Assembly: GCA_026545225.1 (NCBI GenBank)
Contig: CM048852.1
Location: 63,043,238-63,107,237 of the forward strand
From: Cornus controversa
Lineage: Eukaryota > Streptophyta > Magnoliopsida > Cornales > Cornaceae
Direction: 5' to 3'
DNA: 64,000 nucleotides
Both the position numbers and the translations under genes were made by a program. This document shows positions 1 through 58,862 of this stretch, piece by piece (the first letter of the stretch is position 1; each line of letters opens with the position of its first letter). The notes under the pieces were generated by a model. The model was not told the origin of the DNA. It saw only the letters and a list, made by a program, of their open reading frames with translations, and ran no database searches.

Positions 1-35
1 AAATAAATTATGCTTAGCTGATCAGGTTATCAAAT

Positions 36-45
36 CGGATATCCG
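36..45. other. 10 bp perfect palindrome of monomer A (first copy)
   Basis: 'cggatatccg' equals its reverse complement and sits about 36 bp into monomer A, just after the palindrome 'ctgatcag'. It is kept in most A copies. A binding site or cruciform role is not shown. Confidence 0.7.
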
Positions 46-166
46 TTGGGTTATTAGATCGGATTATGGAATTTACGCATATGTGAAAGTACTCATGTAC
101 TAAAATCTTACCGAGACAAATAAATGTAGTTTTTGAATCTGATCAAATTATCATCATTAGATGACT

Positions 167-240
167 CCATTTTTGTAACACCAATTTTGTGAACGTAGCA
201 CCACTTTTGTGAATAGAAGTACTATTTTTGTGAATGCTAT
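167..240 (+). repeat. Internal 20-23 bp subrepeat in monomer A (first copy)
   Basis: Four imperfect copies of an '(ca)cca.ttttgtgaa' core follow each other: 'ccatttttgtaaca', 'ccaattttgtgaacg', 'ccacttttgtgaatag' and 'ctatttttgtgaatgc'. The same block recurs about 165 bp into every intact A, and B has a two-copy version. Confidence 0.75.
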
Positions 241-546
241 TTTGACAAGAACGGTTAAAAATTTATTTATTTTTTTTTCATCACCGGTTGTTAAAATAAT
301 TAGAGTAGTTTGGGCACTTGAATAGAATAAAAAGTGTTTTTTGAAATCCACATCAATATTTTTGGACAATTAGGTTTTTTGGAATTTCACAACTTTGACT
401 TCATGCATTTGTAAATTAGACTCCAAATGTCCATGTATTTGTAATTTTATCTATCCTAAAAATTATTTTCCCTGATCTTTTGATATTAATTTAATTTATT
501 TTTTTCAAATAAAAAAAAAATTCCTTTGCCGATCAAGTTATCAAAT

Positions 547-556
547 CGGACGTCCG
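547..556. other. 10 bp perfect palindrome of short monomer B (first copy)
   Basis: 'cggacgtccg' is the position-equivalent of the A palindrome, differing only at the central two bases. It is present in most short B copies. Long B copies have the non-palindromic 'cggttgtccg' or 'cggttttccg'. Confidence 0.7.
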
Positions 557-1375
557 TTTGTGTACATAGGCACCACTTTTGTATGTAGAGGTACCACCTT
601 TTGTGAAGACTATTGTGTTAACTGCTGATCAAAATTTAGTATATATTTTTTTTATTACTGGTTGGCAAAGTTGTAAGATTTGGTTGGGTACTTGAATAAA
701 ATAAACAATATTTCTTGAAATCCTCATAAGCATTTTAGGACAATTCAATTTTTTGAAATTTCATGACATTCTCTTCATGTATTTGTAAATTTGACTCCAA
801 AAGTTCATGTATTTGTAATTTAATCTATTCGAATAATTATTTTTCCTTCCCCTTTGATATTAATTTATTTTATTTTATTTTATTTAAAAAATATATATCC
901 TTAGCGGATTAGGTTATCAAGTCAAATATCCATTGGTTTATTAGACGGGATCAAAGAATAACCTTATGCATATATAATAGTACGCATTTACTACTAATCA
1001 TTCAACGACAAGTAAATCCAATACGAGAATCTAATCAAATTATCATCATCAGATGACTTTATTTTTTTCATCACAATTTTTGGGCACGTCGGCAGCAGTG
1101 TTTTATGAATTGAGGTACCACTTCTTCTGAAAGCTATTTTATTAACTACTGATCAAAATTTAATTTTTTTTTTATCTTTTTTTTTGTATCACTGTCGTCA
1201 AAACAGTAAGAGTAGTTCGTGTAACTGATTAAAATAAACAGTATTATTTGATATATACATCAACAATTTAGGTTAATTCATGGTTTTGAAATTTCATTAC
1301 TTTAACTTCATGCTTTTGTAAATTTGACTCAAAAAGTCCATATATTTGTAATTTTTCCTATTCTAATCATTATTT

Positions 1376-2562
1376 GTGAATGCTATTTTGACAAGAACGG
1401 TTAAAAATTTATTTATTTTTTTTTCATCACCGGTTGTTAAAATAATTAGAGTAGTTTGGGCACTTGAATAGAATAAAAAGTGTTTTTTGAAATCCACATC
1501 AATATTTTTGGACAATTAGGTTTTTTGGAATTTCACAACTTTGACTTCATGCATTTGTAAATTAGACTCCAAATGTCCATGTATTTGTAATTTTATCTAT
1601 CCTAAAAATTATTTTCCCTGATCTTTTGATATTAATTTAATTTATTTTTTTCAAATAAAAAAAAAAATTCCTTTGCCGATCAAGTTATCAAATCGGACGT
1701 CCGTTTGTGTACATAGGCACCACTTTTGTATGTAGAGGTACCACCTTTTGTGAAGACTATTGTGTTAACTGCTGATCAAAATTTAGTATATATTTTTTTT
1801 ATTACTGGTTGGCAAAGTTGTAAGATTTGGTTGGGTACTTGAATAAAATAAACAATATTTCTTGAAATCCTCATAAGCATTTTAGGACAATTCAATTTTT
1901 TGAAATTTCATGACATTCTCTTCATGTATTTGTAAATTTGACTCCAAAAGTCCATGTATTTGTAATTTAATCTATTTGAATAATTATTTCTCCTTCCCCT
2001 TTGATATTAATTAATTTTATTTTATTTTTTTAAAAAAATATATATCCTTAGCGGATTAGGTTATCAAGTCAAATATCCATTGGTTTATTAGACGGGATCA
2101 AAGAATTACCTTATGCATATATAATAGTATGCATTTACTACTAATCATTCAACGACAAGTAAATCCAATACGAGAATCTAATCAAATTATCATAATCAGA
2201 TGACTTTATTTTTTTCATCACAATTTTTGGGCACGTCGGCACCAGTGTTTTATGAATTGAGGTACCACTTCTTCTGAAAGCTATTTTATTAACTACTGAT
2301 CAAAATTTAATTTTTTTTTAACTTTTTTTTTGTATCACTGTCTTCAAAACAGTAAGAGTAGTTCGTGTAACTGATTAAAATAAACAGTATTATTTGATAT
2401 CTACATCAACAATTTAGGTTAATTCATGTTTTTGAAATTTCATGACTTTAACTTCATGCTTTTGTAAATTTGACTAAAAAAGTCCATATATTTGTAATTT
2501 TTCCTATTCTAATCATTATTTGTCCTTCTCTTTCAATATCAATTTATTTTATTTTACTTTTT
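1376..2562 (+). repeat. Sat1 unit U1b (5'-truncated A, short B, C)
   Basis: Only the last part of A (1376-1652) remains, followed by short B (1653-2031) and full C (2032-2562). The A remnant shares the rare 'ttaaaaatttatttattt' with U1. C matches U17 ('gtcttcaaaacag', 'gactaaaaaagtcc'). Confidence 0.9.
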
Positions 2563-4115
2563 AAATAAATTATCCTTAACTGATCAGGTTATCAAATCGG
2601 ATATCCGTTGGGTTATTAGATCGGATTATGGAATTTACGCATATGTGAAAGTACTCATGTACTAAAAACTTAAAGTGACAAATAAATGTAGTTTTTGAAT
2701 CTGATCAAATTATCATCATTAGATGACTCCATTTTTGTAACACCAATTTTGTGAACGTAGCACCACTTTTGTGAATAGAGGTACTATTATTGTGAATGCC
2801 ATTTTGACAAGAACGGTTAAAAATTTAGTTTTTTTTTTTCATCACCGGTTGTTAAAATAATTAGAGTAGTTTGGGCACTTGAATACAATAAAAAGTGTTT
2901 TTTGAAATCCACTTCAATATTTTTTGACAATTGTGTTTTTTGGATTTTCATGACTTTGACTTCTTGCATTTGTAAATTCGACTCCAAAAGTCCATGTATT
3001 TGTAATTTTATCTATCCTAATAATTATTTTCCTTAATGTTTTGATATTAATTTAACTTTTTATTTTTTAAATAAAAAAACTTTCCTTAGCCGATAAGGTT
3101 ATCTAATCGGTTGTCCGTTTGGTTTCTGGATCAGATTACGGAATAACGTTATGCATATATGAAAGTACTCATGTACTAGTAATCTCTCAATGACAAGTAA
3201 TCTAATTTGAAAATCTGATCAAATTATTATTATCAGATGACTCTAGTTTTTCTTCACTATTTTTGTGTACATAGGACCACTTTTGTAAATAGAGGTACCA
3301 CATTTTGTGAAGACTATTTTGTTAACTGCTGATCAAAATTTAGTATTTTTTTTTTATTACTGGTTGGCAAAATTGTAAGATTTGGTTGGGTACTTGAATA
3401 AAATAAACAATATTTCTTCAAATCCACATAAGCATTTTAGGACAATTCAATTGTTTGAAATTTCATGACATTCTCTTCATGTATTTGTAAATTAGACTCC
3501 AAAAGTCCATGTATTTGAAATTTAACCTATTTGAATAATTATTTTCCCTTCCCCTTTGATATTAATTAATTTTATTTTATTTTTAAATAAAATATATATC
3601 CTTAGCCGATTAGGTTATCAAATCAAATATCCATTGGTCTATTAGAAGGGATCAAGGAATGACCTTATGCATATATAATAGTACGCATTTACTACTAATC
3701 ATTCAATAACAAGTAAATCCAATACGAGAATCTAATCAAATTATCATCATCAGATGACTTTATTTTTTTTATCACAATTTTTGGGCACGTCGGCACCAGT
3801 GTTTTATGAATTGAGGTACCACTTCTTGTGAAAACTATTTTATTAACTACTGATCAAAATTTAGTTTTTTTAAAATATTTTTTTGTATCAATGTCGTCAA
3901 AACAGTAAGAGTAGTTCGTGTAATTAAATAAAATAAACAGTATTATTTGATATCTACATCACCAATTTAGGTTAATTCATGTTTTTGAAATTTCATGACT
4001 TTGACTTCATGCTTTTGTAAATTTGACTCAAAAAGTCCATATATTTGTAATTTTCCCAATTCTAATCATTATTTGCCCTTCTCTTTCGATATCAATTTAT
4101 TTTATTTTACTTTTT
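2563..4115 (+). repeat. Sat1 unit U2 (L type, 1553 bp)
   Basis: A is 2563-3068, full-length B 3069-3584 and C 3585-4115. The unit is nearly identical to U18 (offset 22492), U20 and U37; shared private variants are 'aaaacttaaagtgac', 'attattgtgaatgcc' and 'gccgataagg'. It is a good reference for the undeleted trimer. Confidence 0.93.
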
Positions 4116-5671
4116 AAATAAATTATCCTTAGCAGATCAGGTTATCAAATCGGATATCCGTTGGGTTATTAGATCGGATTATGGAATTTACGCATACGTG
4201 AAAGTACTCATGTTCTAAATACTTACAGTGACAAATAAATGCAGTTTTTGAATCTGATCAAATTATCATCATTAGATGACTCCATTTTTGTAACACCAAT
4301 TTTGTGAACGTAGCACCACTTTTGTGAATAGAGGTACTATTTTTGGGAATTCCATTTTGACAAGAACGGTTAAAAATTTAGTTTTTTTTTTTCATCACCG
4401 GTTGTTAAAATAATTAGAGTAGTTTGGGCACTTGAATACAATAAAAAGTGTTTTTTGAAATCCACTTCAATATTTTTTGACAATTATGTTTTTTGGAATT
4501 TCATGACTTTGACTTCTTGCATTTGTAAATTCGACTCCAAAAGTCCATGTATTTGTAATTTTATCTATCCTAATAATTATTTGCCCTAATCTTTTGATAT
4601 TAATTTAATTTTTTATTTTTTAAATAAAAAAAATATCCTTAGCCGATCAGGTTATCTAATCGGTTTTCCGTTTGGTTTTTGGATCAGATTACGGAATAAC
4701 GTTATGCATATATGAAATTACTCATGTACTAGTAATCTCTCAATGACAAGTAATCTAATTTTAAAATCTGATCATATTATTATCATCAGATGACTCTATT
4801 TTTCTTCACTATTTTATGTGTACGTAGGCACCACTTTTGTAAATAGAGGTACCACCTTTTGTGAATACTATTTTGTTAACTGCTGATCAAAATTTAGTGT
4901 TTTTTTTTTATTAGTGGTTGGCAAAATTGTAAGATTTGGTTGGGTACTTGAATAAAATAAACAATATTTCTTCAAATCCACATAAGCATTTTAGGACAAT
5001 TCAATTTTTTTGAAATTTCATGACATTCTCTTCATGTATTTGTAAATTAGACTCCAAAAGTCCATGTATTTGAAATTTAACCTATTTGAATAATTATTTT
5101 CCCTTCCCCTTTGATATTACTTAATTTTATTTTATTTTTTAAAAAAATATATATCCTTAGGCGATTAGGTTCTCAAATCAAATATCCATTGGTTTGTTTG
5201 AAGGGATCAAGGAATGACCTTATGCATATATAATTGTACGCATTTACTACTAATCATTCAACGACAGGTAAATCCAATATGAGAATCTAATCAAATTATC
5301 ATCATCAGATGACTTTATTTTTTTCATCACAATTTTTGGGCACGTCGGCACCACTGTTTTATGAATTGAGGTACCACTTCTTTTGAAAGCTATTTTATTA
5401 ACTACTGATCAAAATTTAATTTTTTTTTAACTTTTTTTTTGTATCACTGTCGTCAAAACAGCAAGAGTAGTTCGTGTAACTGATTAAAATAAACAATATT
5501 ATTTGATATCTACATCAACAATTTAGGTTAATTCATGTTTTTGAAATCTTATGACTTTAACTTCGTGCTTTTGTAAATTTGACTCAAAAAGTCCATATAT
5601 TTGTAATTTTTCCTATTCTAATCATTATTTGTCCTTCTCTTTTGATATCAATTTATTTTATTTTACTTTTT
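4116..5671 (+). repeat. Sat1 unit U3 (L type, 1556 bp)
   Basis: A is 4116-4621, B 4622-5140 and C 5141-5671. It carries 'catacgtg', 'gttctaaatacttac' and 'tttttgggaattcc' in A and 'gattaggttctcaaat' in C, all shared with U22. Confidence 0.93.
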
Positions 5672-7226
5672 AAATAAATTATCCTTAGCTGATCAGGTTA
5701 TCAATTCGGATATCCGTTTGATTATTAGATCGGATCATGGAATTTACGCATATGTGAAAGTACTCATGTACTAAAAATCTTACAGTGGCAAATAAATGCA
5801 GTTTTTGAATCTGATCAAATTATCATCATTAGATGACTCCATTTTTGTAACACGAATTTTGTGAACGTAGCACCACTCTTGTGAATAGAGGTACTATTTT
5901 TGTGAATGTATTTTGACAGGAACGGTTAAAAATTTAGTTTTTTTTTTTTCATCACCGGTTGTTAAAATAATTAGAGTAGTTTGGGCACTTGAATACAATA
6001 AAAGTGTTTTTTGAAATCCACTTCAATATTTTTTGACAATTATGTTTCTTGGAATTTCATGACTTTGACTTCATGCATTTGTAAATTCGACTCCAAAAGT
6101 CCATGTATTTTAATTTTATCTATCCTAATAATTATTTGCCCTAATCTTTTGATATTAATTTAATTTTTTATTTTTTAAATAAAAAATACTATCCTTAGCC
6201 GATCAGGTTATCTAATCGGTTGTCCGTTTGGTTTTTGGATCAGATTACGGAATAACGTTATGCATATATGAAAGTACTCATGTACTAGTAATCTCTCAAT
6301 GACAAGTAATCTAATTTGAAAATCTGATCATATTATTATCATCAGATGACTCAAGTTTTTCTTCACTATTTTATGTGTACGTAGGCACCACTTTTGTAAA
6401 TAGAGGTAACACCTTTTGTGTACACTATTTTGTTAACTGCTGATCAAAATTTAGTATTTTTTTTTATTACTGGTTGGCAAATTTCTAAGATTTGGTTGGG
6501 TACTTGAATAAAATAAACAATATTTCTTCAAATCCACATAAGCATTTTAGGACAATTCAATTTTTTTGAAATTTCATGACATTCTCTTCATTTATTTGTA
6601 AATTAGACTCCAAAAGTCCATGTATTTAAAATTTAACCTATTTGAATAGTTATTTTCCCTTCCCCTTTGATATTAATTTATTTTATTTTATGTTTAAATA
6701 AAATATATATCCTTAGCCGATTAGGTTACCAAATCAAATAACAATTGGTCTATTAGAAGTGATCAAGGAATGACCTTATGCATATATAATAGTACGCATT
6801 TACTACTAATCATTCAATGACAAGTAAATCCAATACGAGAATCTAATCAAATTATCATCATCAGATGACTTTATTTTTTTCATCACAATTTTTGGGCACC
6901 TCGGCACCAGTGTTTTATGAATTGAGGTACCACTTCTTGTGAAAACTATTTTATTAACTACTGATCAAAATTTAGTTTTTTTTAAAATTTTTTTTGTATC
7001 ACTGTCGTCAAAACAGTAAGAGTAGTTCGTGTAATTGAATAAAATAAACAGTATTATTTGATATCTACATCACCAATTTAGGTTAATTCATGTTTTTGAA
7101 ATTTCATGACTTTGACTTCATGCTTTTGTAAATTTTTCTCAAAAAGTCCATATATTTGTAATTTTCCCAATTCTAATCATTATTTGCCCTTCTCTTTCGA
7201 TATCAATTTATTTTATTTTACTTTTT
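5672..7226 (+). repeat. Sat1 unit U4 (L type, 1555 bp)
   Basis: A is 5672-6176, B 6177-6695 and C 6696-7226. Private variants 'caattcggatatccg', 'acagtggcaaataaatg', 'tttcttggaatttc' and 'ataacaattgg' are shared with U23. Confidence 0.93.
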
Positions 7227-8634
7227 AAATAAATTATCCTTAGCAGATCAAGTTATCAAATTGGATATCCGTTGGGTTATTAGATCGGATTATGGAATTT
7301 ATGCATATATGAAAGTACTCATGTACTAAAATCTTACCTTGACAAATAAATGTAGTTTTTCAATCTGATCAAATTATCATCATTAGATGACTCCATTTTT
7401 GCAACACCAATTTTGTGAACGTAGCACCACTTTTGTGAATAGAGGTACTATTTTTGTGAATGCTATTTTGACACGAACTGTTAAAAATTTAAAATTTTTT
7501 TTTCATCACCGGTTGTTAAAATAATTAGAGTAGTTTGGGCACTTGAATAGAATAAAAAGTGTTTTTTGAAATCCACATCAATATTTTTCGACAATTACGT
7601 TTTTAGGAATTTCACGACTTTGACTTCATGCATTTGTAAATTAGACTCCAAATGTCTATGTATTTGAAATATTATCTATCCTAAAAATTATTTGCCCTAA
7701 TCTTTTGATATTAATTTAATTTATTTTTTTTCAAGAAAGAAAAAATTCCTTTGACATTCAAGTTGTCAAATCGGATGTCCGTTTGTGTACATAGGCACCA
7801 CTTTTGTATGTAGTGGTACCACCTTTTGTGAAGACTATTCTGTTAACTGCTGATCAAAATTTAGTATTTTTTTTGTTACTGGTTTGCAAAATTGTAAGAT
7901 TTGGTTGGGTACTTCAATAAAATAAACAATATTTCTTCAAATTCACATAAGCATTTTAGGACAATTCAATTTTTTGAAATTTCATGACTATCTCTTCATG
8001 TATTTGTAAATTAGACTCCAAAAGTTCATGTATTTGAAATTTAATCTATTTGAATAATTATTTTTCCTCCCCCTTTGATATTAATTAATTTTATTTTATT
8101 TTCTAAAAAAATATATATCCTTGGCCGATTAGGTTATCAAATCAAATATCCATTGGTTTATTAGAAGGGATCAAGGAATGACCTTACGCATATATAATAG
8201 TACGCATTTACTACCAATCATTCAACGACAAGTAAATCCAATACCAGAATCTAATCAAATTATCATCACCAGATGACTTTATTTTTTTCATCACAATTTC
8301 TGGGCACCTCGGCACCAGTGTTTTATGAATTGAGGTACCACTTCTTGTGAAAACTATTTTATTAACTACTGATCAAAATTTAGTTTTTTTTAAATTTTTT
8401 TTTGTATCACTGTCGTCAAAACAGTAAGAGTAGTTCGTGTAATTGAATAAAATAAACAGCATTATTTGATATCTACATCACCAATTTAGGTTAATTCATG
8501 TTTTTGAAATTTCATGACTTTGACTTCATGCTTTTGTAAATTTGACTCAAAAAGTCCATATATTTGTAATTTTCCCAATTCTAATCATTATTTGCCCTTC
8601 TCTTTCGATATCAATTTATTTTATTTTACTTTTT
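7227..8634 (+). repeat. Sat1 unit U5 (S type, 1408 bp)
   Basis: A is 7227-7732, short B 7733-8104 and C 8105-8634. B opens with the unusual 'tcaagaaagaaaaaatt' and 'ttgacattcaagttgtc', shared only with U24. C carries 'ttacgcatatataatag', 'actaccaatc' and 'caccagatgac', which also occur in U24 and as a patch in U32. Confidence 0.93.
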
Positions 8635-10020
8635 AAATAAATTATCCTTAGCTGACCAGTTTATCAAATCGGATATCCGTTGAGTTATTAGATCGGATTA
8701 TGGAATTTATGCATATATGAAAGTACTCATGTACTAAAAATCTTATAGAGACAAATAAATGCAGTTTTTGAATCTGATCAAATTATCATCATTAGATGAC
8801 CCCATTTTTGTAGCAATAATTTTGTGAACGTAGCACCTCTTTTGTGAATAGAGGTACTATTTTTTTGAATGATATTTTGACAAGAACTGTTAAAAATTTA
8901 GTTTTTTTTTTCATCACCGGTTGTTAAAATAATTAAAATAGTTTGGGCACTTGAATAGAATAAAAAGTGTTTTTTGAAATCCACATCAATATTTTTGGAC
9001 AATTATGTTTTTTGGAATTTCACGACTTTGACTTCATGCATTTGTAAATTAGACTCCAAATCCCCATGTATTTGTAGTTTTATCTATCCTAAAAATTATT
9101 TGCCCTGATCGTTTGATATTAATTTTATTTATTTTTTTTAAATAAAAAAAACATTCCTTTGCCGATCAAGTTATCAAATCAGACGTCCGTTTGTGTACAT
9201 AGGCACCACTTTTGTGAAGACTATTCTGTTAACTGCTGATCAAAATTTAGCATTTTTTTTTATTACTGGTTGGCAAAATTGTAAGATTTCGTTGGGTACT
9301 TGAATAAAATAAACAATATTTCTTCAAATCCACATAAGCATTTTAGGACAATTCAATTTTTTGAAATTTCATGACATTCTCTTCATGTATTTGTAAATTT
9401 GAATCCAAAGTCTATGTATTTGTAATTTAATCTATTTCAATAATTATTTTTCCTTCCCCTTTGATATTAATTAATTTTCTTTTATTTTTAAAAAAAATAT
9501 ATATCCTTGGCCGATTAGGTTATCAAATCAAATATCCATTGGTTTATTAGAAGGGATCAAGGAATGACCTTATGCATATATAATAGTACACATTTACTAC
9601 TAATCATTCAACGACAAGTAAATCCAATACGAGAATCTAATCAAATTATCATCATCAGATGACATTATTTTTTCCATCACGATTTTTGGGCACGTCGGCA
9701 CCAGTGTTTTATAAATTGAGGTACCACTTCTTGTGAAAACTATTTTATTAACTACTGATCAAAATTTAGTTTTTTAAAAATATTTTTTTGTATCAATGTC
9801 GTCAAAACAGTAAAAATAGTTCGTGTAATTGAATAAAATAAACAGTATTATTTGATATCTACATCACCAATTTAGGTTAATTCATGTTTTTGAAATTTTA
9901 TGACTTTAACTTCATGCTTTTGTAAATTTGACTCAAAAAGTCCATATATTTGTAATTTTTCCTATTCTAATCATTATTTGTCCTTCTCTTTTGATATCAA
10001 TTTATTTTATTTTACTTTTT
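8635..10020 (+). repeat. Sat1 unit U6 (SS type, 1386 bp)
   Basis: A is 8635-9139, doubly deleted B 9140-9489 and C 9490-10020. Private variants 'gctgaccagttt', 'gatgacccca' and 'agcaataatttt' are shared with U25 and U27. B has both the 145 bp and the additional roughly 24 bp deletion. Confidence 0.93.
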
Positions 10021-11433
10021 AAATAAATTATCCTTAGCTGATCAGGTTATGAAATCGGATATCCGTTGGGTTTTTAGATCGGATTATGGAATTTACGCAT
10101 ATGTGAAAGTACTCATGTACTAAAATCTTACCGTGACAAATAAATGCAGTTTTTGAATCTGATCAAATTATCATCATTAGATGACTCCATTTTCGTAACA
10201 CCAATTTTGTGCACGTAGCACCACTTTTGTGAATAGAGGTACTATTTTTGTGAATGCTATTTTGACAAGAACGGTTAAAAATTTAGTTTTTTTTTTTTCA
10301 TCAGCGGTTGTTAAAATAATTAGAGTAGTTTGGGCACTTGAATAGAATAAAAAGTGTTTTTTGAAATCCACATCAATATTTTTGGACAATTATGTTTTTT
10401 GGAATTTCACGACTTTCACTTCATGCATTTGTAAATTAGACTCCAAATGTCCATGTATTTGTAATTTTATCTATCCTAAAAATTATTTTCCCTCATCTTT
10501 TGATATTAATTTAATTTATTTTTTTAAATAAAAAAAAAATTCCTTTGCCGATCAAGTTATCAAATCGGACGTCCGTTTGTGTACATAGGCACCACTTTTG
10601 TATGTAGAGGTACCACCTTTTGTGAAGACTATTGTGTTAACTGTTGTTCAAAATTTAGTATTTTTTTTTTATTACTGGTTGGCAAAATTGTAAGATTTGG
10701 TTGGGTACTTGAATAAAATAAACAATATTGATTCAAATCCACATAAGCATTTTAGGACAATTCAATTTTTTGAAATTTCATGACATTCTCTTCATGTATT
10801 TGTAAATTAGACTCCAAAAGTCTATGTATTTGAAATTTAACCTATTTGAATAATTATTTTTCCTTCCCCTTTGATATTAATTAATTTTATTTTATTTTTA
10901 AAAAAATACATATATCCTTGGCCGATTAGGTTATCAAATCAAATATACATTGGTTTATTAGACGAGATCAAGGAATGACCTTATGCATATATAATGGTAC
11001 GCATTTACTACTAATCATTCAACGACAAGTAAATCCAATACTAGAATCTAATCAAATTATCATCATCAGATGACTTTATTTTTTTCATCACAATTTTTGG
11101 GCACGTCGGCACCAGTGTTTTATGAATTGAGGTACCACTTCTTGTGAAAACTATTTTATTAACTACTGATCAAAATTAAATTTTTTTATTAACTTTTTTT
11201 TTGTATCACTGTCGTCAAAACAGTAAGAGTAGTTCGTGTAACTGATTAAAATAAACAGTATTATTTGATATCTACATCAACAATTTAGGTTAACTCGTGT
11301 TTTTGAAATTTCATGACTTTGACTTCATGCTTTTGTAAATTTGACTCAAAAAGACCATATATTTGTAATTTTCCCAATTCTAATCATTATTTTCCCTTCT
11401 CTTTTCATATCAATTTATTTTATTTTACTTTTT
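10021..11433 (+). repeat. Sat1 unit U7 (S type, 1413 bp)
   Basis: A is 10021-10525, short B 10526-10899 and C 10900-11433. Variants 'ggttatgaaatcgg', 'ttcgtaacacc', 'gtgcacgtag' and 'atattgattcaaatcc' are shared with U26 and U28. A contains an open minus-strand 70-residue frame (10177-10389), considered non-coding. Confidence 0.93.
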
Positions 11434-12820
11434 AAATAAATTATCCTTAACTGATCAGGTTATCAAATCGAATATCCGTTGGGTTATTAGATCGGATTAT
11501 AGAATTTACGCATATATGAAAGTACTCATGTACTAAAAATCTTATAGTGACAAATAAATGATGTTTTTGAATCTGATCAAATTATCATCATTAGATGACT
11601 CCATTTTTGTAGCACCAATTTTGTGAACGTAGCACCACTTTTGTCAATAGAGGTACTATTTTTGTCAATGATATTTTGACAAGAACTGTTAAAAATTTAG
11701 TTTTTTTTTTTCATCACCGGTTGTTAAAATAATTAAAGTAGTTTGGGCACTTGAATAGAATAAAAAGTGTTTTTTGAAATCCACATCAATATTTTTGGAC
11801 AATTATGTTTTTTCGAATTTCACGACTTTGACTTCATGCATTTGTAAATTAGACTCCAAATCCCCATGTATTTGTAGTTTTATCTATCCTAAAAATTATT
11901 TGCCCTGATCGTTTGATATTAATTTAATTTATTTTTTTTAAATAAAAAAAACATTCCTTTGCCGATCAAGTTATCAAATCGGACGTCCGTTTGTGTACAT
12001 AGGTACCACTTTTGTGAAGACTATTCTATTAACTGCTGATCAAAATTTAGTATTTTTTTTTATTACTGGTTGGCAAAATTGTAAGATTTCGTTGGGTACT
12101 TGAATAAAATAAATAATATTTCTTCAAATATACATAAGCATTTTAGGACAATTCAATTTTTTGAAATTTCATGACATTCTCTTCATGTATTTGTAAATTT
12201 GAATCCAAAGTCCATGTATTTTTAATTTAATCTATTTGAATAATTAGTTTTCCTTCCCCTTTGATATTAATTAATTTTCTTTTATTTTTAAAAAAAATAT
12301 ATATCCTTGGCCGATTAGGTTATCAAATAAAATATCCATTGGTTTATTAGAAGGGATCAAGGAATGACCTTATGCATATATAATAGTACGCATTTACTAC
12401 TAATCATTCAACGACAAGTAAATCCAATACGAGAATCTAATCAAATTATCATCATCAGATGACTTTATTTTTTCCATCACGATTTTTGGGCACGTCGGCA
12501 CCAGTGTTTTATAAATTGAGGTACCACTTCTTGTGAAAACTATTTTATTAACTACTGATCAAAATTTAGTTTTTTTAAAAAACATTTTTGTATCACTGTC
12601 GTCAAAACAGTAAGAGTAGTTCGTGTAATTGAATAAAATAAACAGTATTATTTGATCTCTACATCACCAATTTAGGTTAATTCATGTTTTTGAAATTTCA
12701 TGACTTTGACTTCATGCTTTTGTAAATTTGACTCAAAAACTCCATATATTTGTAATTTTCCTAATTCTAATCATTATTTTCCCTTCTCTTTTGATATCAA
12801 TTTATTTTATTTTACTTTTT
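11434..12820 (+). repeat. Sat1 unit U8 (SS type, 1387 bp)
   Basis: A is 11434-11939, doubly deleted B 11940-12289 and C 12290-12820. Variants 'atcgaatatccg', 'aaatgatgtttttg' and 'ttttttcgaatttc' are shared with U29. Confidence 0.93.
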
Positions 12821-45328: not shown

Positions 45329-46737
45329 AAATAAATTATCCTTAACTGATCAGGTTATCAAATCGGATATCCGTTGGGTTATTAGATCGGATTATGGAAT
45401 TTACGCATATATGAAAGTATTCATGTACTAAAAATCTTACAGTGACAAATAAATGCAATTTTTAAATCTGATCAAATTATCATCATTAGATGACTCCATT
45501 TTTGTACCACCAATTTTGTGAACGTAGCACCACTTTTGTGAATAGAGGTACTATTTTTGTTAATGCTATTTTGACAAGAACGGTTAAAATTTTAGTTTTT
45601 TTTTTTTCATCACCGGTTGTTAAAATAATTAGAGTAGTTTGGGCACTTGAATAGAATAAAAAGTGTTTTTTGAAATCCACATCAATATTTTTGGACAATT
45701 TTGTTTTTTGGAATTTCACGACTTTGACTTCATGCATTTGTAAATTAGACTCCAAATCCCCATGTATTTGTAGTTTTATCTATCCTAAAAATTATTTGCC
45801 CTGATCGTTTGATATTAATTTAATTTATTTTTTTTAAATAAAAAAAACATTCCTTTGCCGATCAAGTTATGAGATCGGACGTCCGTTTGTGTACATAGGC
45901 ACCACTTTTGTATTTAGAAGTACCACCTTTTGTGAAGACTATTCTGTTAACTGCTGATCAAAATTTAGTATTTTTTTTTATTACTGGTTGGCAAAATTGT
46001 AAGATTTGGTTGGGTACTTGAATAAAATAAATAATATTTCTTCAAATCCACATAAGCATTTTAGGACAATTCAATTTTTTGAAATTTCATGACATTTTCT
46101 TCATGTATTTGTAAATTTAGATCCAAAGTCCATGTATTTGTAATTTAATCTATTTGAATAATTATTTTTCCTTCCCCTTTGATATTAATTAATTTTATTT
46201 TATTTTTAAAAAAATATATATCCTTGGCCGATTAGGTTATCAAATCAAATATCCATTGGTTTATTAGAAGGGATCAAGGAATGACCTTACGCATATATAA
46301 TAGTACGCATTTACTACCAATCATTCAACGACAAGTAAATCCAATACCAGAATCTAATCAAATTATCATCACCAGATGACTTTATTTTTTTCATCACAAT
46401 TTTTGGGCACCTCGGCACCAGTGTTTTATGAATTGAGGTACCACTTCTTGTGAAAACTATTTTATTAACTACTGATCAAAATTTAGTTTTTTTTAAATTT
46501 TTTTTTGTATCACTGTCGTCAAAACAGTAAGAGTAGTTCGTGTAATTGAATAAAATAAACAGCATTATTTGATATCTACATCACCAATTTAGGTTAATTC
46601 ATGTTTTTGAAATTTCATGACTTTGACTTCATGCTTTTGTAAATTTGACTCAAAAAGTCCATATATTTGTAATTTTCCCAATTCTAATCATTATTTTCCC
46701 TTCTCTTTTGATGTCAATTTATTTTATTTTACTTTTT
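45329..46737 (+). repeat. Sat1 unit U32 (S type, 1409 bp, patched C)
   Basis: A is 45329-45835, short B 45836-46207 and C 46208-46737. A and B match U12. C between at least 46276 and 46563 matches U24/U5, then returns to U12 type ('ttattttccc', 'gatgtcaattt'). Confidence 0.92.
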
Positions 46738-48145
46738 AAATAAATTATCCTTAGGTGATCAGGTTATCAAATCGGATATCCGTTGGGTTATTAGATCGGA
46801 TTATGGAATTTACGCATATATGAAAGTATTCATGTACTAAAAATCTTACAGTGACAAATAAATGCAATTTTTGAATCTGATCAAATTATCATCATTAGAT
46901 GACTCCATTTTTGTACCACCAATTTTGTGAATGTAGCACCACTTTTGTCAATAGAGGTACTATTTTTGTGAATGAAATTTTGACAAGAACTGTTAAAAAT
47001 TTAGTTTTTTTTTTTCATCACCGGTTGTTAAAATAATTAGAGTAGTTTGGGCACTTGAATAGAATAAAAAGTATTTTTTGAAATCCACATCAATATTTTT
47101 GGACAATTATGTTTTTTGGAATTTCACGACTTTGACTTCATGCATTTGTAAATTAGACTCCAAATCCCCATGTATTTGTAGTTTTACCTATCCTAAAAAT
47201 TATTTGCCCTGATCGTTTGATATTAATTTAATTTATTTTTTTTAAATAAAAAAAACATTCCTTTGCCGATCAAGTTATGAGATCGGACGTCCGTTTGTGT
47301 ACATAGGCACCACTTTTGTATTTAGAAGTAACACCTTTTGTGAAGACTATTCTGTTAACTGCTGATCAAAATTTAGTATTTTTTTTTATTACTGGTTGGC
47401 AAAATTGTAAGATTTGGTTGGGTACTTGAATAAAATAAATAATATTTCTTCAAATCCACATAAGCATTTTAGGACAATTCAATTTTTTGAAATTTCATGA
47501 CATTCTCTTCATGTATTTGTAAATTTAAATCCAAAGTCCATGTATTTGTAATTTAATCTATTTGAATAATTATTTTTCCTTCCCCTTTGATATTAATTAA
47601 TTTTATTTTATTTTTAAAAAAATATATATCCTTGGCCGATTAGGTTTTCAAATCAAATATCCATTGGTTTATTAGAAGGAATCAAAGAATAACCTTATGC
47701 ATATATAATAGTACGCATTTACCACTAATCATTCAACGACAAGTAAATCCAATATGAGAATCTAATCAAATTATCATCATCAGATGACTTTATTTTTTCC
47801 ATAACTATTTTTGGGCACGTCGGCACTAGTGTTTTATGAATTGAGGTACCACTTCTTGTGAAAACTATTTTATTAACTACTGATCAAAATTTAGTTTTTT
47901 TTTAATTTTTTTTTGTATCACTGTCGTCAAAACAGTAAAAGTAGTTCGTGTAATTGAATAAAATAAACAGTATGATTTGATATCTACATCACCAATTTAG
48001 GTTAATTCATGTTTTTGAAATTTCATTACTTTAACTTCATGCTTTTGTAAATTTGACTCAAAAAGTCCATATATTTGTAATTTTTCCTATTCTAATCATT
48101 ATTTGTCCTTCGCTTTTGATATCAATTTATTTTATTTTACTTTTT
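46738..48145 (+). repeat. Sat1 unit U33 (S type, 1408 bp)
   Basis: A is 46738-47243, short B 47244-47615 and C 47616-48145. It is the counterpart of U13 except for the last 120 bp of C, which match the end of U38 ('tttcattactttaac', 'ccttcgcttttg'). Confidence 0.92.
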
Positions 48146-49074
48146 AAATAAATTATCCTTAACTGATCAGGTTATCAAATCGGATATCCGTTGGGTTATT
48201 AGATCGGATTATGGAATTTACGCATACGTGAAAGTACTCATGTTCTAAATACTTACAGTGACAAATAAATGCAGTTTTTGAATCTGATCAAATTATCATC
48301 ATTAGATGACTCCATTTTTGTAGCACCAATTTTGTGAACGTAGCACCACTTTTGTGAATAGAGGTACTATTTTTGTGAATGCTATTTTAACAAGAACGGT
48401 TAAAAATTTAGTTTTTTTTTTTCATCACCAGCTGTTAAAATAATTAGAGTAGTTTGGGCACTTGAATAGAATAAAAAGTGTTTTTTGGAATCCACTTCAG
48501 TATTTTTTGACAATTATGTTTTTTGGAATTTCATGACTTTGACTTCATGCATTTGTAAATTCGACTCCAAAAGTCCATGTATTTGTAATTTTCTATATCC
48601 TAAACATTATTTGCCCTAATCTTTTGATATTAATATAATTTTTTAATTTTTAAATAAAAAAAACTATCCTTAGCCGATCAGGTTATCTAATCAGTTGTCC
48701 GTTTGGTTTTTGGATCAGATTACGGAATAACGTTTTGCATATATGAAAGTACTCATGTACTAGTAATCTCTCAATGACAAGTAATCTAATTTGAAAATCT
48801 GATCAAATTATTATCATCGGATGACTCTAGTTTTTATTCACTATTTTTGTGTACGTAGGCACCACTTTTGTAAATAGTGGTACCACCTTTTGTGAAGACT
48901 ATTTTGTTAACTGCTGATTGGCAAAATTATAAGATTTGGTTCAGAGCTTGAATAAAATAAACAATATTACTTCAAATCCACATAAGCATTTTAGTCCATA
49001 TATTTATAATTTTTCCTATTCTAATCATTATTTGTCCTTCTCTTTTGATATCAATTTATTTTATTTTACTTTTT
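48146..49074 (+). repeat. Sat1 unit U34 (T type, 929 bp)
   Basis: A is 48146-48651, with truncated B from 48652 and C remnant from about 48995. It has the same two deletions as U14. The first 110 bp of A are U22/U39 type ('catacgtg', 'gttctaaatacttac') rather than U14 type, as part of a conversion tract continuing from U33. Confidence 0.93.
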
Positions 49075-50492
49075 AATTAAATTATCCTTAACTGATCAGG
49101 TTATCAAATCGGATATCTGTTGGGTTTTTAGATCGGATTATGGAATTTACGCATATGTGAAAGTACTAATGTACTAAAATCTTACCGTGACAAATAAATG
49201 CAGTTTTTGAATCTGATCAAATTATCATCATTAGATGACTCCATTTTTGTAACACCAATTTTGTGAACGTAGCACCACTTTTGTGAATAGAGGTACTATT
49301 TTTGTGAATGCTATTTTCACAAGAACGGTTAAAAATTTAGTTTTTTTTTTTTTCATCACCGGTTGTTAAAATAATTAGAGTAGTTTGGGCACTTGAATAG
49401 AATAAAAAGTCTTTTTTGAAATCCACATCAATATTTTTGGACAATTAGGTTTTTTGGAATTTCACAACTTTGACTTCATGCATTTGTAAATTAGACTCCA
49501 AATGTCCATGTATTTGTAATTTTATCTATCCTAAAAATTATTTTCCCTGATCTTTTGATATTAATTTAATTTATTTTTTTCAAATAAAAAAAAAAATTCC
49601 TTTGCCGAACAAGTTATCAAATCGGACGTCCGTTTGTGTACATAGGCACCACTTTTGTATGTAGAGGTACCACCTTTTGTGAAGACTATTGTGTTAACTG
49701 CTGATCAAAATTTAGTATATATTTTTTTTATTACTGGTTGGCAAAGTTGTAAGATTTGGTTGGGTACTTGAATAAAATAAACAATATTTCTTGAAATCCT
49801 CATAAGCATTTTAGGACAATTCAATTTTTTGAAATTTCATGACATTCTCTTCATGTATTTGTAAATTTGACTCCAAAAGTCCATGTATTTGTAATTTAAT
49901 CTATTTGAATAATTATTTTTCCTTCCCCTTTGATATTAATTTATTTTATTTTATTTTATTTAAAAAATATATATCCTTAGCGGATTAGGTTATCAAGTCA
50001 AATATCCATTGGTTTATTAGACGGGATCAAAGAATAACCTTATGCATATATAATAGTACGCATTTACTACTAATCATTCAACGACAAGTAAATCCAATAC
50101 GAGAATCTAATCAAATTATCATCGTCAGATGACTTTATTTTTTTCATCACAATTTTTGGGCACGTCAGCAGCAGTGTTTTATGAATTGAGGTACCACTTC
50201 TTCTGAAAGCTATTTTATTAACTACTGATCAAAATTTAATTTTTTTTTTAACTTTTTTTTTGTATCACTGTCGTCAAAACAGTAAGAGTAGTTCGTGTAA
50301 CTGATTAAAATAAACAGTATTATTTGATATATACATCAACAATTTAGGTTAATTCATGTTTTTGAAATTTCATTACTTTAACTTCATGCTTTTGTAAATT
50401 TGACTCAAAAAGTCCATATATTTGTAATTTTTCCTATTCTAATCATTATTTGTCCTTCGCTTTTGATATCAATTTATTTTATTTTACTTTTT
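49075..50492 (+). repeat. Sat1 unit U35 (S type, 1418 bp)
   Basis: A is 49075-49581, short B 49582-49961 and C 49962-50492. It is the counterpart of U15. 'cacgtcagcagcag' and 'ccttcgcttttg' in C recur in U38. Confidence 0.92.
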
Positions 50493-51907
50493 AAATAAAT
50501 TATGCTTAGCTGATCAGGTTATCAAATCGGATATCCGTTGGGTTATTAGATCGGATTATGGAATTTACGCATATGTGAAAGTACTCATGTACTAAAATCT
50601 TACCGTGACAAATAAATGCAGTTTTTGAATCTGATCAAACTATCATCATTATATGACTCCATTTTTGTAACACCAATTTTGTGAACGTAGCACCACTTTT
50701 GTGAATAGAGGTACTATTTTTGTGAATGCTATTTTGACAAGAACGGTTAAAAATTTAGTTTTTTTTTTTTCATCACCGGTTGTTAAAATAATTAGAGTAG
50801 TTTGGGCACTTCAATAGAATAAAAAGTGTTTTTTGAAATCCACATCAATATTTTTGGACAATTATGTTTTTTGGAATTTCACAACTTTGACTTCATGCAT
50901 TTGTAAATTAGACTCCAAATGTCCATGTATTTGTAATTTTATCTATCCTAAAAATTATTTTCCCTGATCTTTTGATATTAATTTAATTTATTTTTTTTAA
51001 ATAAAAAAAAAATTCCTTTGCCGATCAAGTTATCAAATCGGACGTCCGTTTGTGTACATAGGCACCACTTTTGTATGTAGAGGTACCACCTTTTGTGAAG
51101 ACTATTGTGTTAACTGCTGATCAAAATTTAGTATATATTTTTTTTATTACTGGTTGGCAAAGTTGTAAGATTTGGTTGGGTACTTGAATAAAATAAACAA
51201 TATTTCTTGAAATCCTCATAAGCATTTTAGGACAATTCAATTTTTTGAAATTTCATGACATTCTCTTCATGTATTTGTAAATTTGACTCCAAAAGTCCAT
51301 GTATTTGTAATTTAATCTATTTGAATAATTATTTCTCCTTCCCCTTTGATATTAATTAATTTTATTTTATTTTTTAAAAAAAATATATATCCTTAGCGGA
51401 TTAGGTTATCAAGTCAAATATCCATTGGTTTATTAGACGGGATCAAAGAATTACCTTATGCATATATAATAGTACGCATTTACTACTAATCATTCAACGA
51501 CAAGTAAATCCAATACGAGAATCTAATCAAATTATCATCATCAGATGACTTTATTTTTTTCATCACAATTTTTGGGCACGTCGGCACCAGTGTTTTATGA
51601 ATTGAGGTACCACTTCTTCTGAAAGCTATTTTATTAACTACTGATCAAAATTTAATTTTTTTTTAACTTTTTTTTTGTATCACTGTCTTCAAAACAGTAA
51701 GAGTAGTTCGTGTAACTGATTAAAATAAACAGTATTATTTGATATCTACATCAACAATTTAGGTTAATTCATGTTTTTGAAATTTCATGACTTTAACTTC
51801 ATGCTTTTGTAAATTTGACTAAAAAAGTCCATATATTTGTAATTTTTCCTATTCTAATCATTATTTGTCCTTCTCTTTCAATATCAATTTATTTTATTTT
51901 ACTTTTT
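50493..51907 (+). repeat. Sat1 unit U36 (S type, 1415 bp)
   Basis: A is 50493-50998, short B 50999-51375 and C 51376-51907. It is the counterpart of U17 at offset 26853. No U16 equivalent precedes it. Confidence 0.92.
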
Positions 51908-53460
51908 AAATAAATTATCCTTAACTGATCAGGTTATCAAATCGGATATCCGTTGGGTTATTAGATCGGATTATGGAATTTACGCATATGTGAAAGTACT
52001 CATGTACTAAAAACTTAAAGTGACAAATAAATGTAGTTTTTGAATCTGATCAAATTATCATCATTAGATGACTCCATTTTTGTAACACCAATTTTGTGAA
52101 CGTAGCACCACTTTTGTGAATAGAGGTACTATTATTGTGAATGCCATTTTGACAAGAACGGTTAAAAATTTAGTTTTTTTTTTTCATCACCGGTTGTTAA
52201 AATAATTAGAGTAGTTTGGGCACTTGAATACAATAAAAAGTGTTTTTTGAAATCCACTTCAATATTTTTTGACAATTGTGTTTTTTGGATTTTCATGACT
52301 TTGACTTCTTGCATTTGTAAATTCGACTCCAAAAGTCCATGTATTTGTAATTTTATCTATCCTAATAATTATTTTCCTTAATGTTTTGATATTAATTTAA
52401 CTTTTTATTTTTTAAATAAAAAAACTTTCCTTAGCCGATAAGGTTATCTAATCGGTTGTCCGTTTGGTTTCTGGATCAGATTACGGAATAACGTTATGCA
52501 TATATGAAAGTACTCATGTACTAGTAATCTCTCAATGACAAGTAATCTAATTTGAAAATCTGATCAAATTATTATTATCAGATGACTCTAGTTTTTCTTC
52601 ACTATTTTTGTGTACATAGGACCACTTTTGTAAATAGAGGTACCACATTTTGTGAAGACTATTTTGTTAACTGCTGATCAAAATTTAGTATTTTTTTTTT
52701 ATTACTGGTTGGCAAAATTGTAAGATTTGGTTGGGTACTTGAATAAAATAAACAATATTTCTTCAAATCCACATAAGCATTTTAGGACAATTCAATTGTT
52801 TGAAATTTCATGACATTCTCTTCATGTATTTGTAAATTAGACTCCAAAAGTCCATGTATTTGAAATTTAACCTATTTGAATAATTATTTTCCCTTCCCCT
52901 TTGATATTAATTAATTTTATTTTATTTTTAAATAAAATATATATCCTTAGCCGATTAGGTTATCAAATCAAATATCCATTGGTCTATTAGAAGGGATCAA
53001 GGAATGACCTTATGCATATATAATAGTACGCATTTACTACTAATCATTCAATAACAAGTAAATCCAATACGAGAATCTAATCAAATTATCATCATCAGAT
53101 GACTTTATTTTTTTTATCACAATTTTTGGGCACGTCGGCACCAGTGTTTTATGAATTGAGGTACCACTTCTTGCGAAAACTATTTTATTAACTACTGATC
53201 AAAATTTAGTTTTTTTAAAATATTTTTTTGTATCAATGTCGTCAAAACAGTAAGAGTAGTTCGTGTAATTAAATAAAATAAACAGTATTATTTGATATCT
53301 ACATCACCAATTTAGGTTAATTCATGTTTTTGAAATTTCATGACTTTGACTTCATGCTTTTGTAAATTTGACTCAAAAAGTCCATATATTTGTAATTTTC
53401 CCAATTCTAATCATTATTTGCCCTTCTCTTTTGATATCAATTTATTTTATTTTACTTTTT
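51908..53460 (+). repeat. Sat1 unit U37 (L type, 1553 bp)
   Basis: A is 51908-52413, full B 52414-52929 and C 52930-53460. It is the counterpart of U18, sharing 'cttcttgcgaaaac' with U18 but not U20, which identifies U18 rather than U20 as its sister. Confidence 0.93.
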
Positions 53461-54878
53461 AATTAAATTATCCTTAACTGATCAGGTTATCAAATCGGAT
53501 ATCCATTGGGTTATTAGATCGGATTATGGAATTTACGCATATGTGAAAGTACTCATGTACTAAAAATCTTACCGTGACAAATAAATGCAGTTTTTGAATC
53601 TTATCAAATTATCATCATTAGATGACTCCATTTTTGTAACACCAATTTTGTGAACGTAGCACCACTTTTGTGAATAGAGGTACTATTTTTGTGAATGCTA
53701 TTTTGACAAGAACGGTTAAAAATTTAGTTTTTTTTTTTTCATCACCGGTTGTTAAAATAATTAGAGTAGTTTGGGCACTTCAATAGAATAAAAAGTGTTT
53801 TTTGAAATCCACATCAATATTTTTGGACAATTATGTTTTTTGGAATTTCACAGCTTTGACTTCATGCATTTGTAAATTAGACTCCAAATGTCCATGTATT
53901 TGTAATTTTATCTATCCTAAAAATTATTTTCCCTGATCTTTTGATATTAATTTAATTTATTTTTTTTAAATAAAAAAAAAAATTCCTTTGCCGATCAAGT
54001 TATCAAATCGGACGTCCGTTTGTGTACATAGGCACCACTTTTGTATGTAGAGGTACCACCTTTTGTGAGTACTATTGTGTTAACTGCTGATCAAAATTTA
54101 GTATATTTTTTTTTTATTACTGGTTGGCAAAATTGTAAGATTTGGTTGGGTACTTGAATAAAATAAACAATATTTCTTCAAATCCTCATAAGCATTTTAG
54201 GACAATTTAATTTTTTGAAATTTCATGACATTCTCTTCATGTATTTGTAAATTTGACTCCAAAAGTCCATGTATTTGTAATTTAATCTATTTGAATAATT
54301 ATTTTTCCTTCCCCTTTGATATTAATTTATTTTATTTTATTTTTTTAAAAAAATATATATCCTTAACGGATTAGGTTATCAAGTCAAATATCCATTGGTT
54401 TATTAGACGGGATCAAAGAATTACCTTATGCATATATAATAGTACGCATTTACTACTAATCATTCAACGACAAGTAAATCTAATACGAGAATCTAATCAA
54501 ATTATCATCGTCAGATGACTTTATTTTTTTCATCACAATTTTTGGGCACGTCAGCAGCAGTGTTTTATGAATTGAGGTACCACTTCTTCTGAAAGCTATT
54601 TTATTAACTACTGATCAAAATTTAATTTTTTTTTTAACTTTTTTTTTGTATCACTGTCGTCAAAACAGTAAGAGTAGTTCGTGTAACTGATTAAAATAAA
54701 CAGTATTATTTGATATATACATCAACAATTTAGGTTAATTCATGTTTTTGAAATTTCATTACTTTAACTTCATGCTTTTGTAAATTTGACTCAAAAAGTC
54801 CATATATTTGTAATTTTTCCTATTCTAATCATTATTTGTCCTTCGCTTTTGATATCAATTTATTTTATTTTACTTTTT
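53461..54878 (+). repeat. Sat1 unit U38 (S type, 1418 bp, three-part mosaic)
   Basis: A is 53461-53967, short B 53968-54346 and C 54347-54878. It opens as U19 ('aattaaattatcc', 'atatccattggg'), becomes U21-like by 53780 ('cacttcaatag', 'cacagctttg', 'gtgagtactattg') and ends as U35 ('cacgtcagcagcag', 'ccttcgcttttg'). Confidence 0.9.
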
Positions 54879-56401
54879 AAATAAATTATCCTTAACTGAT
54901 CAGGTTATCAAATCGGATATCCGTTGGGTTATTAGATCGGATTATGGAATTTACGCATACGTGAAAGTACTCATGTTCTAAATACTTACAGTGACAAATA
55001 AATGCAGTTTTTGAATCTGATCAAATTATCATCATTAGATGACTCCATTTTTGTAACACCAATTTTGTGAACGTAGCACCACTTTTGTGAATAGAGGTAC
55101 TATTTTTGGGAATTCCATTTTGACAAGAACGGTTAAAAATTTAGTTTTTTTTTTTCATCATCAGTTGTTAAAATAATTAGAGTAGTTTGGGCACTTGAAT
55201 ACAATAAAAAGTGTTTTTTGAAATCCACTTCAATATTTTTTGACAATTATGTTTTTTGGAATTTCATGACTTTGACTTCTTGCATTTGTAAATTCGACTC
55301 CAAAAGTCCATGTATTTGTAATTTTCTATATCCTAAACATTATTTGCCCTAATCTTTTGATATTAATATAATTTTTTATTTTTTAAATAAAAAAAACTAT
55401 CCTTAGCCGATCAGGTTATCTAATCAGTTGTCCGTTTGGTTTTTGGATCAGATTACGGAATAACGTTTTGCATATATGAAAGTACTCATGTACTAGTAAT
55501 CTCTCAATGACAAGTAATCTAATTTGAAAATCTGATCAAATTATTATCATCGGATGACTCTAGTTTTTATTCACTATTTTTGTGTACGTAGGCACCACTT
55601 TTGTAAATAGTGGTACCACCTTTTGTGAAGACTATTTTGTTAACTGCTGATTGGCAAAATTATAAGATTTGGTTCAGAGCTTGAATAAAATAAACAATAT
55701 TTCTTCAAATCCACATAAGCATTTTAGGATAATTCTAGTTTTTGAAATTTCATGACATTCCCTTCATGTATTTGTAAATTAGACTCCAAAAGTCCTTGTA
55801 TATGAAATTTAATCTATTTGAATAATTATTTTTCCTTCCCCCTTGATATTAATTTATTTTATTTTATTTTAAAAAAATATATATATCCTTGGCCAATTAG
55901 GTTATCAAATCAAATATCCATTGGTTTATTAGAAGGGATCAAGGAATGACCTTATGCATATATAATAGTACGTATTTACTACTAATCATTCTACAACAAG
56001 TAAATCCAATACGAGAATCTAATCAAATTATCATCATCAGATGACTTTATTTTTTTCATCACAATTTTTGGGCACGTCGGCACCAGTGTTTTATGAATTG
56101 AGGTTCACTTCTTGTGAAAACTATTTTATTAATTACTGATCAAAATTTTGTTTTTTTAAAATTTTTTTTTGTATCACTGTCGTCAAAATAGTAAGAGTAG
56201 TTCGTGTAACTGAATAAAATAAACAGTATTATTTGATATCTACATCACCAATTTAGGTTCATTCATGTTTTTGAAATTTCATGACTTTGACTTCAAGCTT
56301 TTGTAAATTTGACTCAAAAAGTCCATATATTTGTAATTTTCCCAATTCTAATAATTATTTGCCCTTCTCTTTTGATATCAATTTATTTTATTTTACTTTT
56401 T
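54879..56401 (+). repeat. Sat1 unit U39 (L type with 36 bp B deletion, 1523 bp, chimeric)
   Basis: A is 54879-55384, B 55385-55870 and C 55871-56401. A begins as U22 ('catacgtg', 'tttttgggaattcc') and from about 55320 becomes U34/U14 type ('ttttctatatcctaaac'). B carries 'ctgctgattggcaaaat' like the T units but keeps the rest of B and all of C, so it represents the state before the T deletion. Confidence 0.92.
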
Positions 56402-57774
56402 AAATAAATTATCCTTAGCTCATCAGGTTATCAAATCGGATATTATCAGATCGAATTATGAAATTTACGCATATATGAAAGTACTCATGTACTAAAAATT
56501 TTACAGTCACAAATAAATGCAGTTTTTGAATCGGATCAAATTATCATCATTAGATGACTCCATTTTTGTAACACCAATTTTGTGAACGTAGCACCACTTT
56601 TGTCAATAGAGGTACTATTTTTGTGAATGCTATTTTGACAAGAACGGTTAAAAATTTAGTTTTTATTTCTTCATCACCGGTTGTTAAAATAATTAGAGTA
56701 GTTTGGGCACTTGAATACAATAAAAAGTGTTTTTTGAAATCCACTTCAATATTTTTGGACAATTATGTTTTTTGGAATTTCATGACTTTGACTTCATGCA
56801 TTTGTAAATTTGACTCCAAAAGTCCATGTATTTGTAATTTTATCGATCCTAATAATTATTTGCCCTAATCTTTTGATATTAATTTAATTTTTTTAATTTT
56901 TAAATAGAAAAAACTATCTTTAGCCGATCAGGTTATCAAATCGGATATCTGTTTGGTTTTTGGATCAGATTACAGAATAACGTTATGCATATATGAAAGT
57001 ACTCATGTACTAGTAATCTCTCAATGACAAGTAATGTAATGTGAAAATCTGATCAAATTACTATCATCAGATGACTCTAGTTTTTCTTCACTATTTTTGT
57101 GTACGTAGGCACCACTTTTGTAAATAGAGGTACCACCTTTTGTGAAGACTATTTTGTTAACTGCTGATCAAAATTTAGTATTTTTTTTTATTACTGGTTG
57201 TCAAAATTGTAAGATTTGGTTGGGTACGTGAATAAAATAAACAATATTTCTTTAAATCCACATAGGCATTTTAGGACAATTCAATTTTTTGAAATTTCAT
57301 GACATTCTCTTCATGTATTTGTAAATTAGACTCCACTAGTCCATGTATTTGATATTTAATCTATTTGAATAATTATTTTTCCTTCCCCTTTGATATTAAT
57401 TAATTTTATTTTATTTTTAAAAAAAATATATATCCTTGGCCGAATAGGTTATCAAATGAAATATCCATTGGTTTATTAGAAGGGATCATGGAATGACCTT
57501 ATGTATATATAATAGTACGCATTTACTACTAATCATTCAACGACAAGTAAATCCAATATGAGAATGTAATCAAATTATCATCATCAGATGACTTTATTTT
57601 TTCATCACAATTTTTCGGCACGTCGGCACCAGTGTTTTATGAATTAAGGCACCACTTCTTGTGAAAACTATTTTATTAACTACTGATCAAAATTTAATTT
57701 TTTTTAACTTTTTTTTTGTATCACTGTCGTCAAAACAGTAAGAGTAGTTCGTGTAATTGATTAAAATAAACAGT
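56402..57774 (+). repeat. Sat1 unit U40 (terminal, L type, C truncated)
   Basis: A is 56402-56901 with a roughly 9 bp net loss around 56441 ('ggatattatcagatcg'). Full B is 56902-57418. C starts at 57419 and is cut after 'aaataaacagt' at 57774. B retains 'caaatcggatatctgtttgg', closer to the A version than other B copies. The unit has many private changes, as expected at an array edge. Confidence 0.9.
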
Positions 57775-58860: not shown

Positions 58861-58862
58861 AT

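Follow-up and report, generated by a model that had tools for sequence, protein, structure and literature searches.

Known satellite systems and the C8 array

Tandem repeats nested within larger tandem repeats have been described in primates: local-nested higher-order repeats (HORs) occur in the alpha satellite of human CEN9, 13, 15 and 18 (HiCAT, PMC10053651), and super-HORs comprising 45 to 84 monomers have been reported in orangutan (PMC12428378). Among plants, khipu of Phaseolus is a 528-bp subtelomeric satellite in which exchange across non-homologous ends goes along with duplication at a local scale (PMC3797529). The present analysis concerns a satellite array with monomers of about 520 bp at the end of contig C8 of Cornus controversa, studied in a window of 64,000 bp (C8:63,043,238-63,107,237), in which an ordered series of A-B-C trimers of about 27 kb is present in two tandem copies. 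Nested HORs having already been described in human and orangutan, this kind of array is known, and the view of an earlier note on this DNA, that most satellite HORs go no further than one level beyond the monomer, was too strong (PMC10053651, PMC12428378).

Like the C8 array, the human local-nested HORs contain tandemly repeated subunits inside a higher-order unit, i.e. levels within levels, but they consist of the 171-bp primate monomer, are centromeric and occur in many copies, whereas the arrays described here have a 520-bp monomer, lie mostly near contig ends and, on C8, show two top-level copies (PMC10053651). The cascading 58mer superHOR of the orangutan Y resembles the C8 block in its very long unit, in the monomer types recurring inside it and in the whole-row duplications found as variants. 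It measures ~10 kb (58 x ~171 bp, calculated) and is present in 67 (abstract) or 310 (text) copies, compared to ~57 monomers, 26.9 kb and two copies for the C8 block (PMC12428378).

Khipu may resemble the C8 array in its blocks near chromosome ends, in its inter-end exchange and local duplication, and perhaps in its monomer length of 528 bp, the three monomer classes found here measuring ~510 bp (A), 516-519 bp when full and otherwise less (B) and ~527 bp (C); the available text of that article contains none of the terms trimer, dimer or higher order (PMC3797529). FabTR-53, a subtelomeric satellite of Lathyrus sativus, is likewise AT-rich (76%) with three long subfamilies, but differs in its monomer lengths (660, 368 and 565 bp) and in that HORs were not detected (PMC7004042). 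The potato subtelomeric repeats CL14 and CL34 also form satellite arrays directly joined to other repeats and to telomere repeats, although with monomers of 182 and 339 bp (PMC3276127). Similarity to FabTR-53 (two primers) or CL14/CL34 (four primers), judged by published primers, was rejected, the best matches having 7-9 mismatches in 20-24 bases where shuffled primers average 6-9. Eighteen fragments from the monomers and from two repeats described below (the AT-rich one and that of 28 bp), some as reverse complements, were not found in open-access main texts, in which line breaks may hide sequences. A viral origin was also rejected: an 18-mer of the array matched two IMG/VR contigs, and beyond it only 22-25 bases aligned, at 84-86% (E 0.42).

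Monomers and trimers

Contig C8 terminates with the window, which is its final 64 kb, and window position p corresponds to C8 position 63,043,237 + p. The satellite array measures 72.8 kb in total, with its upstream limit at C8:63,028,185 (window coordinate -15052). Within the window two parts can be distinguished:

1 to 57774, forward strand: satellite array of 520-bp monomers in A-B-C trimers, all head to tail
57775 to 64000, no strand: AT-rich array (15-16% GC) of 51-52-bp repeats, reaching the contig end

The GC content of the satellite array is 26-28%, and no coding or RNA content was found in it using open reading frame and tRNA tools with bacterial settings. The window satellite is non-coding repeated DNA close to the end of an assembled contig.

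Cutting at a conserved 24-base anchor delimited 120 monomers in 24-57775, which sort into the three classes, with a mean identity of 93.8-95.1% within and 75.8-77.1% between classes. The A-B-C order is broken only in T01 (where a fused C precedes an additional B and C) and in T14 and T34 (without C), while T40 is truncated by the array end. Thirty-five of the 40 trimer units in the window measure 1385-1418 or 1553-1556 bp, in agreement with the 1.39-1.56 kb proposed earlier; the others measure 2562, 930, 929, 1523 and 1351 bp. As trimers are on average 94.4% identical to each other, the array combines diverged monomer classes, a fixed order and a more homogeneous repeating unit, and is a HOR. 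Of the autocorrelation peaks expected by the earlier note, those at the trimer lags and in the 24-28 kb range (here at 26.5-27.0 kb) were recovered, and that at 520 bp was weak: exact 20-mer pairs numbered 66 at lags 340-560 versus 20,430 at lags 1360-1580, because the monomer classes have diverged, and the monomer level is visible by alignment. At the smallest scale, Tandem Repeats Finder reported two-copy repeats of ~20 bp inside many A monomers.

A tandem duplication of about 27 kb

The trimers form a block present in two adjacent copies, flanked and partly composed of zones of similar units (Y0, Y1 and Y2):

24 to 4138, forward strand: right portion of zone Y0 (U12, U13); U12, with a C-to-A fusion, measures 2562 bp
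4139 to 31017, forward strand: block copy 1, 26,879 bp, 19 trimer units U14-U32 (T03-T21)
4139 to 20828, forward strand: variable module (Z part) of copy 1
20829 to 31017, forward strand: zone Y1 (U26-U32), with B of 376 or 516-517 bp
31018 to 54901, forward strand: block copy 2, 23,884 bp, units U33-U49 (T22-T38)
31018 to 49097, forward strand: portion of copy 2 ahead of zone Y2
35538 to 38333, forward strand: two-trimer segment U36-U37, of which copy 2 has one more occurrence than copy 1 (gained in copy 2 or lost from copy 1)
49098 to 54901, forward strand: zone Y2 (U46-U49)
54902 to 57774, forward strand: distal end units U50-U51, U51 being truncated within its C monomer

When the 19 units U14-U32 were compared with the 19 units U33-U51, 15 collinear pairs were obtained that are 99.34% identical, against the 94.4% background, and their pairing score was reached in none of 2000 order permutations. 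U22, U27, U30 and U31 of the first set and U36, U37, U50 and U51 of the second remained unpaired. Exact 100-mer pairs peak at lags of 26.5-27.0 kb (9376 of 49,188 pairs). The longest self-match, 6374-24199 with 34664-52466 (17.9 kb, 95.3%), is one trimer off the best register; it is followed by 3262-20436 with 30137-47297 (17.2 kb, 96.8%), and a further match joins 22142-28796 with 48993-55651 (6.7 kb, 98.8%). A random shuffle of the letters 1-57774 gave no repeated 20-mer pairs, versus 409,949 observed. Between trimer and block there are local two-trimer duplications of 2.8-3.0 kb, namely U36-U37 versus U38-U39 (99.9 and 99.2%) and U28-U29 versus U30-U31 (98.8 and 99.6%). The earlier reading of at least three nested tandem levels (monomer, trimer and ~27-kb block) with an ordered super-repeat of 24-27 kb is therefore borne out, with two-trimer and ~20-bp steps in addition.

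Upstream of the window the array continues for 15 kb with edge units and with units resembling 20829-31017, but without any units resembling 4139-20828; a third 27-kb copy in this position was accordingly rejected. A superHOR array like that of the orangutan Y has its top-level unit in many copies, unlike C8, with two in the whole 72.8-kb array. The C8 top level is a single tandem segmental duplication within a satellite rather than a longer series. Of the large-segment amplification suggested earlier, the duplication of a very large segment with unit order kept stands, but amplification does not, as there are only two copies.

An assembly artefact, in which both alleles of a single block, or a repeat that was resolved wrongly, were joined in tandem at the C8 end, is improbable in our judgement. 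It would be in line with the window being the last 64 kb of C8, ending in the AT-rich array and nowhere containing a double TTTAGGG or CCCTAAA, and two alleles could also show 99.34% identity and gains or losses of whole trimers. Three observations speak against it, none of them decisively: the left flanks differ in structure (the fused U12 with U13 ahead of copy 1, but U30-U31-U32 ahead of copy 2), divergence is uneven along the block, and other super-repeats exist on C2, C10, C6 and C4.

Shortened and fused monomers

An identical 144-bp deletion is present in 29 of the 41 window B monomers and absent from 12, and five of the 29 carry an additional deletion of 20-22 bp. In full-length B the lost 144-bp stretch is flanked by TTTG on both sides. 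In a quick maximum-likelihood tree built from 50 array units (all 51 except U12, left out for its fusion), all 34 short-B units fell on one side of a branch with a support of 99 in the Shimodaira-Hasegawa-like approximate likelihood ratio test (SH-aLRT), which fits a single deletion event; overall, 23 of 46 inner branches had a support of at least 95 and ten were below 80. Two monomers are fusions of B and C:

20411 to 20828, forward strand: fused B/C monomer of U25, 418 bp, with 315 bp of a U50-type B and the last 105 bp of a C
48680 to 49097, forward strand: fused B/C monomer of U45 (copy 2), with junction letters identical to U25

The B and C parts overlap by 2 bp, and 64 bp are skipped relative to the aligned position. 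Since such an overlap and skip are as in microhomology-mediated joining, the block could derive from break-induced replication, or from rolling-circle amplification of an excised circle, and not from unequal sister-chromatid exchange. This origin is rather unlikely: the join is found in both copies and is therefore older than the duplication, only two copies are present, unlike the output of a rolling circle, and the similar Y zones flanking the block give a simple exchange substrate.

Two further irregularities were seen. In U12 a C is joined to the middle of an A (window 911-1681), and unit U04 has no separate B (window coordinates -11094 to -10030; L031 and the preceding stretch).

Related arrays on other contigs

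A 39-base A-type pattern, allowing up to 3 mismatches, was matched 536 times in forward and 61 times in reverse orientation in the assembly (771.7 Mb, 61 contigs), and locations were taken from the first 100 matches listed. Stretches read as letters included C2:104,925,000-104,942,999, C10:47,755,000-47,764,999 and 30 kb of C6. All ten compared loci on C2, C4, C6 and C10 are tiled by trimers, and the best-matching C8 units are mostly 94-98% identical to their units, with lower values for the 1,515-bp C10 units (92.0% at best) and for one C2 unit (L006, 84.8%).

On these contigs the trimers recur with other periods. The C2 stretch has a period of 7,463 bp, equal to five trimers (99.96% over 10.5 kb), and the C10 stretch one of 3,072 bp, equal to two (99.94% over 6.9 kb). 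Judged by spacing only, with 40 of 981 candidates scored, U17-type B matches are 4,200-4,202 bp apart at no fewer than five places on C6 (13,633,945-13,650,749) and 2,830 bp apart at three or more places on C4 (76,525,788-76,531,448). The respective super-repeats are present in at least three copies on C2, at least three on C10 and, by spacing, at least five on C6, and periods of 7.46, 3.07, 4.20 and 2.83 kb on C2, C10, C6 and C4 indicate super-repeats of several sizes on different contigs. HOR units in series that are themselves tandemly repeated in one order, i.e. nested HORs, are found on C8, C2 and C10.

Arrays or matches lie ~6 kb (C8), 50 kb (C4), 0.4-0.7 Mb (C2) and 0.5 Mb (C10) from contig ends. 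This location, despite the internal C6 array, is among the reasons why a functional centromere-type HOR maintained by selection appears very improbable, even though human centromeres usually have a HOR structure (PMC9859433); the A-type pattern has just 597 matches in 772 Mb, and the C8 array has beside it a TTTAGGG tract and an array of degenerate G-rich 28-bp repeats.

Array ends and flanking repeats

TTTAGGG is the usual plant telomere repeat; five-unit exact matches to it number 7124 forward and 1425 reverse in the assembly. The C8, C4, C2 and C10 arrays are close to contig ends and that of C6 is internal, while C8 itself ends inside the AT-rich array, without telomere repeats. The distal border of the C8 satellite is shared with other contigs:

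57774/57775, no strand: junction of satellite and AT-rich repeat, with the same breakpoint once on C4 and twice on C2 (99% over 501 bp)

In full length this junction occurs at four or more places (39 of 1525 candidates scored): here (100%) and at C4:76,581,894, C2:104,837,210 and C2:104,982,792 (99% each). It is preceded by U50-like and U51-like units on C4 and at both C2 places; those of C4 are 97.8% (U50-like) and 99.4% (U51-like, over 513 bp compared) identical to C8. Three consecutive C4 units match U17, U18 and U19 at 97.1, 97.1 and 97.4%. The left junction, from a short TTTAGGG tract into the array, has a single genome match at up to 2 mismatches, the C8 site itself.

The ~49 kb directly upstream of the C8 array (~C8:62,978,500-63,028,180; L025-L030) are occupied by the degenerate G-rich repeat of 28 bp, ending in the short TTTAGGG tract at the first base of the satellite. 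A similar G-rich repeat, without the tract, borders the C6 array on the left. The AT-rich array at 57775-64000 shows longer periods of 1088 bp (~70%) and 1427 bp (88%), and its orientation flips near 61,490. This repeat is also present on C3, C6 and C9, and on C2:104,560,365-104,594,955 it has a constant spacing of 2306 bp at 16 places among the matches listed. From C2:104,605,343 there is a run of exact TTTAGGG repeats of at least 0.7 kb, ~0.8 Mb inside C2 (105,390,297 bp) and ~0.1 Mb before the first A-type match among the matches listed.

Origin of the nested arrays

The best reading of these data, to which we assign a probability of roughly 0.75, is recurrent unequal exchange at several scales combined with exchange between chromosome ends. 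In the case of the C8 block, the similar Y zones on both sides would have provided a simple substrate for exchange.

Several results weigh against this reading. Substitutions between paired units are very uneven, from 0/1553 to 28/1408 (chi-square 95.3, 14 degrees of freedom), a pattern that does not agree with a single clean duplication unless conversion or exchange took place afterwards. In a toy simulation of array evolution with arbitrary settings (150 runs per event size), comparable blocks arose in 0%, 5% and 27% of arrays at mean events of 1.5, 3 and 6 trimers, implying that large events are needed. For ten C4 units, the order agreement with C8 was reached by 1 of 2000 permutations for copy 2 and by 119 of 2000 for copy 1. 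The 30 kb read on C6 contained no block, only trimers ~96% alike, and the C6 array lies 13.5 Mb inside its contig, which means that not every array is near a contig end.

Although real and well ordered, the arrangement belongs to a kind already known and does not represent a new kind of element. As a tentative extension, a shared trimer may diversify separately at each end, giving second-order repeats of five trimers on C2, two on C4, three on C6, ~19 on C8 and two on C10, while inter-end exchange may keep C2, C4 and C8 alike in their distal junction and final units. If this is true, the C8 duplication would directly document how one exchange turned an array-end module, flanked by homogeneous zones, into a super-repeat. 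The C8 array is a compact case in which the succession from monomer through trimer and two-trimer segment up to the 27-kb block can be ordered, and the differing super-repeats built on the shared trimer can be compared between chromosome ends, which makes the size of exchange events in satellites of this sort measurable.
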